Shown: positions 2,417 to 45,404 of the stretch, in pieces | How the letters are laid out: each line of letters opens with the position of its first letter | How positions within the stretch are numbered: position 1 is the first letter of the stretch | NCBI RefSeq assembly: GCF_002218195.1 | Contig: NZ_CP022336.1 | Location: forward strand, 682,001-746,000 | Direction: 5' to 3' | DNA: 64,000 bases | DNA from: Sphingorhabdus sp. SMR4y | GTDB lineage: Bacteria > Pseudomonadota > Alphaproteobacteria > Sphingomonadales > Sphingomonadaceae | Notes under the pieces: generated by a model | The model's input: only the letters and a program-made list of their open reading frames with translations | Database searches by the model: none | Told to the model about the DNA's origin: nothing | Position numbers and translations under genes: made by a program

Positions 2417-2598
2417 GTCGGATTACTAGCGCCATAAATCGCCGGGCGACAGACCCTGATCCGCACGGCTGTCCCGAACCTTCAGAACAGCATCATTTTT
2501 AAGCATATTTGTGACAAGTTCGGAACGGATTTGGCAAAAATCTTGATAAATTTGCCTGCAAAATGGCAAAAAGTTAATTTTTTTTTGGACTTGGTCGA

Positions 2599-2665
2599 GA
2601 GTCCTGAAACGACTCATTTCTGCGGGTTACAGAGTCATTTGACATCGTGCGACTCGTGCTGAATC
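2599..2665. promoter_or_regulatory. Cluster of five GANTC (CcrM-type) methylation sites upstream of ctrA
   Basis: GANTC occurs five times in 67 bases: GAGTC 2599-2603, GACTC 2611-2615, GAGTC 2632-2636, GACTC 2651-2655 and GAATC 2661-2665. GANTC is methylated by CcrM in alphaproteobacteria, and a GANTC in the Caulobacter ctrA P1 promoter ties transcription to passage of the replication fork. The cluster lies 117-183 bases ahead of the ctrA start codon. Together with the next feature it fills the 365-base arfB-ctrA gap, which holds no convincing ORF. That the sites are methylated here is inference. Confidence 0.6.
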
Positions 2666-2681
2666 CTGCCTTAGGGAAAAA

Positions 2682-2714
2682 TTAACCTTTTACGTTCATT
2701 CATCTTATGGTTAA
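2682..2714. promoter_or_regulatory. Putative CtrA half-sites (autoregulation of ctrA)
   Basis: TTAACCTT at 2682-2689 matches seven of eight bases of the CtrA half-site TTAACCAT, and ATGGTTAA at 2707-2714 is its exact reverse complement. The pair is inverted and lies 68-100 bases before the ctrA start codon. CtrA controls its own promoters in Caulobacter, so autoregulation is the natural reading, but binding is untested here. Confidence 0.45.
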
Positions 2715-2781
2715 TAAATGATCCATCGGGTCGGCATGATGATCGATCCGGAGTGAGTAATTAAGAAAAAGGGGCTGCCTG

Positions 2782-44981: not shown

Positions 44982-45404
44982 TTAATTCTTTTTGCCCTTT
45001 TTCTTGCCGAGGCCGATAGCCTTTGCAAGTTGGCGGCGCTTCTCCGCATAATTGGGCGCGACCATCGGATAATCGTTGGGCAAGCCCCATTTCGCGCGAT
45101 AATCCTCGGGTGTCATGCCATAATGCGTCATCAGGTGGCGTTTCAGCATTTTCAGCTTCTTGCCATCTTCCAGGCAGACCACATAGTCCGGTTTTATCGA
45201 TGCCTTGATCGGAACAGCAGGTTCGGGGCGCGCCTGTTCTGCGGCTTCCCCTGAAAGCGAGGCCAGTGCGCCATGAACACTGCTGATGATGAGTGGCAAA
45301 TCCGATACTGCAACGCTGTTATTGCTGACATGCGCAGCAACAATGTCTGAAGTGAGCGTAATCAACGTCTCATTCAGAGCAATTTCTTCCTCTGTCATAT
45401 TCAA
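44982..45404 (-). CDS. mucR: MucR/Ros family transcriptional regulator
   Basis: At 140 residues this is a normal MucR protein. The zinc-finger-like domain is YVVCLEDGKKLKMLKRHL, followed by MTHYGMTPEDYRAKWGLP. The second zinc Cys of Ros is replaced by Asp (CLED), as in many MucR proteins. It binds AT-rich DNA and represses many genes; in Caulobacter, MucR acts on the cell cycle with CtrA. The 91-base upstream gap is AT-rich (TTTTTATTTTATTG), compatible with self-repression. Confidence 0.94.
   Translation of the reverse strand: MNMTEEEIALNETLITLTSDIVAAHVSNNSVAVSDLPLIISSVHGALASLSGEAAEQARPEPAVPIKASIKPDYVVCLEDGKKLKMLKRHLMTHYGMTPEDYRAKWGLPNDYPMVAPNYAEKRRQLAKAIGLGKKKGKKN

Follow-up and report, generated by a model that had tools for sequence, protein, structure and literature searches.

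In Caulobacter, the ctrA P1 promoter has GANTC at -29 and a CtrA half-site at -14, while P2 has a CtrA box at -39 (PMC4287350). GcrA prefers methylated DNA in this organism, binding methylated ctrA P1 as well as the mipZ promoter, which has two sites (PMC3667746). YGAKTCK has been put forward as an extended GcrA motif whose generality has been questioned (PMC7987155). Within the Sphingomonadales, GcrA control of ctrA has already been predicted from sequence (PMC7987155), up to five GANTC sites have already been counted upstream of sphingomonad ctrA genes (PMC8116508), and genome-wide m6A at GANTC has been demonstrated in Sphingomonas sp. AAP5 (PMC8067484). Epigenetic control by GcrA and CcrM has been little tested outside Caulobacter.

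We analyzed a 64-kb window (C1:682001-746000) of the 3.48-Mb chromosome of Sphingorhabdus sp. SMR4y, in which five GANTC sites lie within 67 bp upstream of ctrA (Table 1). An earlier sequence-only reading had placed these sites, named the downstream gene as ctrA and described the motif as usually rarer than chance in alphaproteobacterial genomes: all five coordinates proved exact, the gene was confirmed by its protein family model, and GANTC is depleted in the window. GANTC occurs 144 times in the window against 338 expected from dinucleotide shuffles, indicating that it is avoided there, and across twenty 20-kb stretches of this chromosome (400 kb in total) its density is 1.95 per kb, from which five GANTC in 67 bp would be expected 0.055 times across the 3.48-Mb genome under a Poisson model. 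Scanning the whole genome with the pattern GANTC(N3-30)GANTC(N3-30)GANTC yielded 60 triples, every one of which we examined; four chains reached five sites, two within long ORFs and two outside. The two outside ORFs are the ctrA array, which at 67 bp is the tightest, and a 97-bp array upstream of ccrM. Collectively, the observations set out below suggest that this region is probably where the ctrA promoter responds to methylation, with P1 under GcrA/CcrM control and P2, downstream of it, autoregulated by CtrA.

Smaller clusters of four sites were also recorded. One, at C1:1760672 (L150:1073-1130), spans 58 bp, overlaps the end of a 343-aa ORF and lies ~315 bp upstream of a small minus-strand ORF (L150:574-759) identified by eye as a Flp-type pilin; another, at C1:2562835 (L160:1036-1074), spans 39 bp and is flanked by a minus-strand ORF and, by eye, a proA-like gene. 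The gcrA promoter of the SMR4y genome carries no GANTC cluster.

Table 1. Features of the ctrA upstream region of SMR4y. Positions are those of the 64-kb window; negative numbers are offsets of GANTC sites from the ctrA ATG (2782).
Feature	Position	Strand	Remarks
AT-rich block AAAAAGTTAATTTTTTTTT	2568-2586		Immediately upstream of the array; near-invariant in 29 genus genomes, DNA upstream of the block variable
GANTC site 1, GAGTC, -183	2599-2603		GANTC kept in 27/29 genus genomes
Upstream module CGACTCATTTCTGCGGGTTACAGAGTC	2610-2636	+	Contains sites 2 (2611) and 3 (2632); GA-TC of both invariant in 29 genomes
GANTC site 2, GACTC, -171	2611-2615		YGAKTCK on minus strand (TGAGTCG)
GANTC site 3, GAGTC, -150	2632-2636		N base G in 24, C in 5 genus genomes
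Predicted P1 core promoter	2649-2677	+	GCGACTC (2649-2655, -35-like), 14 nt, CTTAGGGA (2670-2677, -10-like)
GANTC site 4, GACTC, -131	2651-2655		Order-wide conserved; YGAKTCK on minus strand (CGAGTCG)
GANTC site 5, GAATC, -121	2661-2665		Within 14-nt spacer of predicted P1; in 19/29 genus genomes
AAAATTAACCTTTTACGTTCAT with putative TTAACC CtrA half-site (2682-2687)	2678-2699	+	Near-invariant in genus; box in 76/78 order-wide loci
TTATGGTTAATAAATGATC, inverted TTAACC half-site (2709-2714; GGTTAA) over -10-like TTAATAAAT	2705-2723	+	Near-invariant in genus, recognizable order-wide
ctrA, response regulator, 235 aa	2782-3489	+	NCBIfam NF045991, 422 bits vs cut-off 350

The layout of the region fits two successive predicted promoters. 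Site 4 is contained in the -35-like GCGACTC of predicted P1, and sites 4 and 5 fit placement over and between the -35 and -10 elements of a predicted promoter that is conserved order-wide. The extended GcrA motif is matched by only two of the five sites, 2 and 4, both on the minus strand. Downstream, the TTAACC at 2682-2687 would lie close to where P1 is predicted to start, and its distance from predicted P2 is roughly that expected of a CtrA box; judged by the known consensus, it is a putative binding site for CtrA, and the TTATGGTTAATAAATGATC/TTAATAAAT element is the putative P2 itself. Upstream, the AT-rich block AAAAAGTTAATTTTTTTTT may be a UP-like element or an AT-rich protein site, and TTTCTGCGGGTTA, the core of the upstream module CGACTCATTTCTGCGGGTTACAGAGTC, has its only exact occurrence in the genome here. 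We make no claim of helical phasing, for which a Rayleigh p of ~0.035 here, with the five sites close to one DNA face, compares with 0.03-0.83 in other genera with at least four sites.

The gene ctrA is present in 33 genomes of the genus, SMR4y included, and a genus footprint was derived from the 29 loci retrieved with their upstream region complete. All five sites are present in 18 of these loci, four in 10 and three in one. The GA-TC letters are invariant at sites 2, 3 and 4, with the spacer at 2638-2647 mostly unconserved; the N base is altered once at site 1 and once at site 2, varies between A, C and G at site 5, and is always C at site 4. An N base that turns over within a retained GA-TC, as seen above all at sites 3 and 5, is the pattern of selection for a GANTC methylation site. 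Comparison of these loci shows selection on the five GANTC sites, which precede putative CtrA half-sites that are themselves conserved.

Enrichment of GANTC before ctrA extends to the order. Among 78 sphingomonad ctrA loci with 300 bp upstream, from species that are related so that counts are not independent, promoters carry 0-7 GANTC, with a mean of 1.6 against 0.44 expected from surrounding density. Enrichment reaches 8.7-fold between -210 and -100 (105 vs 12 expected), where AANTT, the highest of 15 control palindromes, shows 4.6-fold enrichment, which the adjacent AAATTAACC block probably explains. No GANTC occurs within 300 bp in 14/78 promoters, implying that methylation input is dispensable in some species. 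A TTAACC(T)TT box is nearly universal (76/78 loci); in 28/76 loci a GACTC stands exactly 31 bp before it, followed by 14 nt and mostly by (G/C)TTA. The resulting GCGACTC-N14-(G/C)TTA looks like a core promoter with a methylation site over its -35 element. Other genera add 13 further GANTC occurrences, whose distance to the TTAACC box is 22 or 23 bp as against 21 bp for site 5 of SMR4y, and we read this site 5 equivalent as lying inside the promoter spacer. Sites 1-3 are part of an upstream block, with module CGACTCATTTCTGCGGGTTACAGAGTC, that belongs to the genus.

Two incidental observations concern this locus set. In some related genera a sequence similar to the TTTCTGCGGGTT module appears inverted (L010, L013, L024, L006 and L038, at about -195 to -170 from ctrA); arfB was considered as the cause and set aside, being found in only 12/80 locus flanks and mostly at a distance. 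Locus L067, from a record labelled Arthrobacter sp. TPD3018, has a ctrA of sphingomonad type (95% identity), and the genome is probably mislabelled.

The same conservation could have arisen in part for reasons other than methylation, with GCGACTC acting as a -35 element or SciP-type GCGAC site, the upstream module serving as another factor's site, and GANTC being incidental to both. The invariant N base of site 4 fits such an account, and site 4 may be retained partly as a -35 element or GCGAC motif; the upstream module is likewise conserved well past the GANTC letters, and in related genera appears inverted. Against it stand the N-base changes with GA-TC kept at sites 1, 2, 3 and 5, together with the finding that GANTC is the most enriched among palindromes of the same form order-wide, and far more so at ccrM. 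We regard non-methylation constraint as an unlikely explanation for part of the array.

The ccrM promoter array is stronger than that of ctrA, and is the strongest signal in the analysis. In SMR4y it lies at C1:670920-671016, 12.5 kb from the ctrA array, with GANTC at -197, -168, -148, -129, -105 and -40, and with TTAACC boxes after the first five, so that its layout matches that of ctrA: a GANTC array, then TTAACC boxes. At least four of the sites are retained throughout the genus, in which ctrA and ccrM are 11-36 kb apart where both fall on one contig. Outside the genus, the ccrM upstream regions of 28 sphingomonads carry 2-10 GANTC per 300 bp in 28/28 cases, in total 174 against 8.4 expected, a 20.7-fold enrichment compared with 4.1-fold for the next control motif. 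These arrays are present even in species with no GANTC at the ctrA promoter. A literature search covering few subscription journals found no earlier report of an order-wide ccrM array. Together, the two promoters suggest that ctrA and ccrM probably both read DNA methylation state. A GGTTAC-N-GANTC element common to ctrA and ccrM of SMR4y was dropped from consideration, as it is not kept in ccrM of relatives.

The enzymatic and regulatory partners are encoded in the same genome. CcrM of SMR4y (C1:671117-672265) combines N6_N4_Mtase and RAMA domains, and its best solved match is Caulobacter CcrM (6pbd, 529 bits); against the Caulobacter CcrM equivalog model it scores 612 bits, below the cut-off of 830. 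GcrA is encoded at C1:1233798 (PF07750, 135.6 bits vs cut-off 26.9). A ccrM match was found in 25/25 good-quality genus genomes and, full-length or near full-length, in 28/30 genomes outside the genus. In one of the remaining two (G059, that of L058) ccrM appears split over two frames at C1:934209-935335, and in the other (G060, that of L012) there is a weak partial match only, yet the ctrA promoter has two GANTC.

Replication position separates SMR4y from the Caulobacter arrangement. In alphaproteobacteria rsmG is an origin-side marker. It lies at 2.343 Mb in SMR4y, with ctrA at 0.685 Mb and ccrM at 0.671 Mb, placing ctrA 1.66 Mb from rsmG, or ~95% of the replichore of the 3.48-Mb chromosome. 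GC skew is mostly negative before it changes to positive between 2.15 and 2.32 Mb, and it reverses again between 0.58 and 0.93 Mb. The rsmG position and GC skew thus place both ctrA and ccrM near the terminus. In other genus genomes with long contigs, ctrA again falls in the terminus half, at ~0.79-0.92 of the replichore (lengths rounded).

This bears directly on a hemimethylation timer as in Caulobacter, in which fork passage would switch P1 on until CcrM remethylates the DNA, and five sites would lengthen or sharpen the window. The Caulobacter ctrA P1 is such a timer with one site (PMC8116508), and five sites in one stretch would require five remethylation events. SMR4y ctrA does not, however, share the origin-proximal location of the Caulobacter-type P1 timer, and its terminus-near position makes prolonged hemimethylation following early passage of the fork unlikely, assuming Caulobacter timing; hemimethylation would be brief with CcrM timed as in Caulobacter. 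We hold this timer to be rather improbable. The sequence-only reading, citing the hemimethylation response of the single Caulobacter site, had proposed that five sites may give a steeper switch or serve CcrM/GcrA-dependent control, and had taken loss of the cluster in relatives or absence of CcrM as grounds for abandoning it. Neither was found: the array is kept in the 29 genus loci, GANTC is enriched in the order, and a RAMA-domain methylase is present. The broader proposal of CcrM/GcrA control thus gains from both regulators being encoded and from the conserved, enriched array; the Caulobacter-style response to early fork passage gained no support, as sites near the terminus would be fully methylated for most of S phase with Caulobacter timing.

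Local protection from methylation is a further alternative, in which a DNA-binding protein such as MucR shields the sites, leaving the array undermethylated and a point of competition between CcrM and a repressor. MucR protects GANTC from CcrM in Caulobacter and Sinorhizobium (PMC5172544). The window itself encodes a MucR homolog (45006-45365, minus strand; C1:727006-727365; PF05443, 173 bits), and the invariant AT-rich block and TTTCTGCGGGTTA block beside sites 1-3 resemble protein footprints. Hypomethylated promoters are reported to lack conservation between species in general (PMC5172544), whereas the ctrA array is, and we judge shielding to be quite improbable. A functionless chance cluster, for which the range of site number among species might speak, can be dismissed given the small number of such clusters expected in the genome and conservation throughout the genus.

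Our preferred reading of the region, as a methylation-responsive P1 followed by an autoregulated P2, would operate as follows. CcrM would methylate the five GANTC sites; GcrA together with sigma-70 RNA polymerase would bind these sites once methylated, chiefly site 4 in the -35-like element; the GcrA-bound polymerase would fire P1 from a start near 2680; and new CtrA would bind TTAACC at 2682, repressing P1 and activating P2. Sites 1-3 and 5 may provide additional GcrA binding sites or further readouts of methylation, increasing occupancy or making the response sharper. At this terminus-near locus the array should stay fully methylated for most of replication, with just a short hemimethylated phase as replication ends, making full methylation the likelier active state. 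CtrA can be lost without a growth defect in Sphingomonas melonis, which counts against this explanation (PMC8116508), as do the sphingomonad ctrA promoters lacking GANTC, the fixed N base of site 4 and the match of only two sites to the extended GcrA motif. More speculatively, and with low confidence, the linked terminus-side ctrA and ccrM arrays of this genus might both remain fully methylated throughout S phase, becoming hemimethylated only as replication finishes; methylation would then report completion rather than early fork passage, with the ccrM promoter as its own main sensor. With replication timing opposite to that of Caulobacter, the ctrA array and the 2-10-site ccrM arrays offer a natural test of hemimethylation timing against a reading of full methylation.

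The closest described system is ctrA P1/P2 of Caulobacter crescentus, which SMR4y resembles in the gene itself, in the regulators encoded, in GANTC near the predicted -35/-10 interval and in putative CtrA half-sites downstream. In contrast to the single, origin-proximal GANTC of Caulobacter, SMR4y has five sites, an extra upstream module and a terminus-proximal locus, and its CtrA half-site is predicted near +1 (the start itself being predicted from sequence) rather than at -14. The GcrA-bound mipZ promoter of Caulobacter likewise goes beyond a single GANTC (PMC3667746), but with two juxtaposed sites rather than five, and at a different gene. The existing survey of Sphingomonadales ctrA promoters (PMC8116508) gives counts only; the maximum here is seven, and the survey's rule of at least one site fails in our larger sample, given the promoters with none. 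What this analysis adds is the promoter geometry, the footprint in the genus, the location on the terminus side and the ccrM array seen across the order: the principle is known, and its new variation is a dense array on the terminus side of the chromosome.
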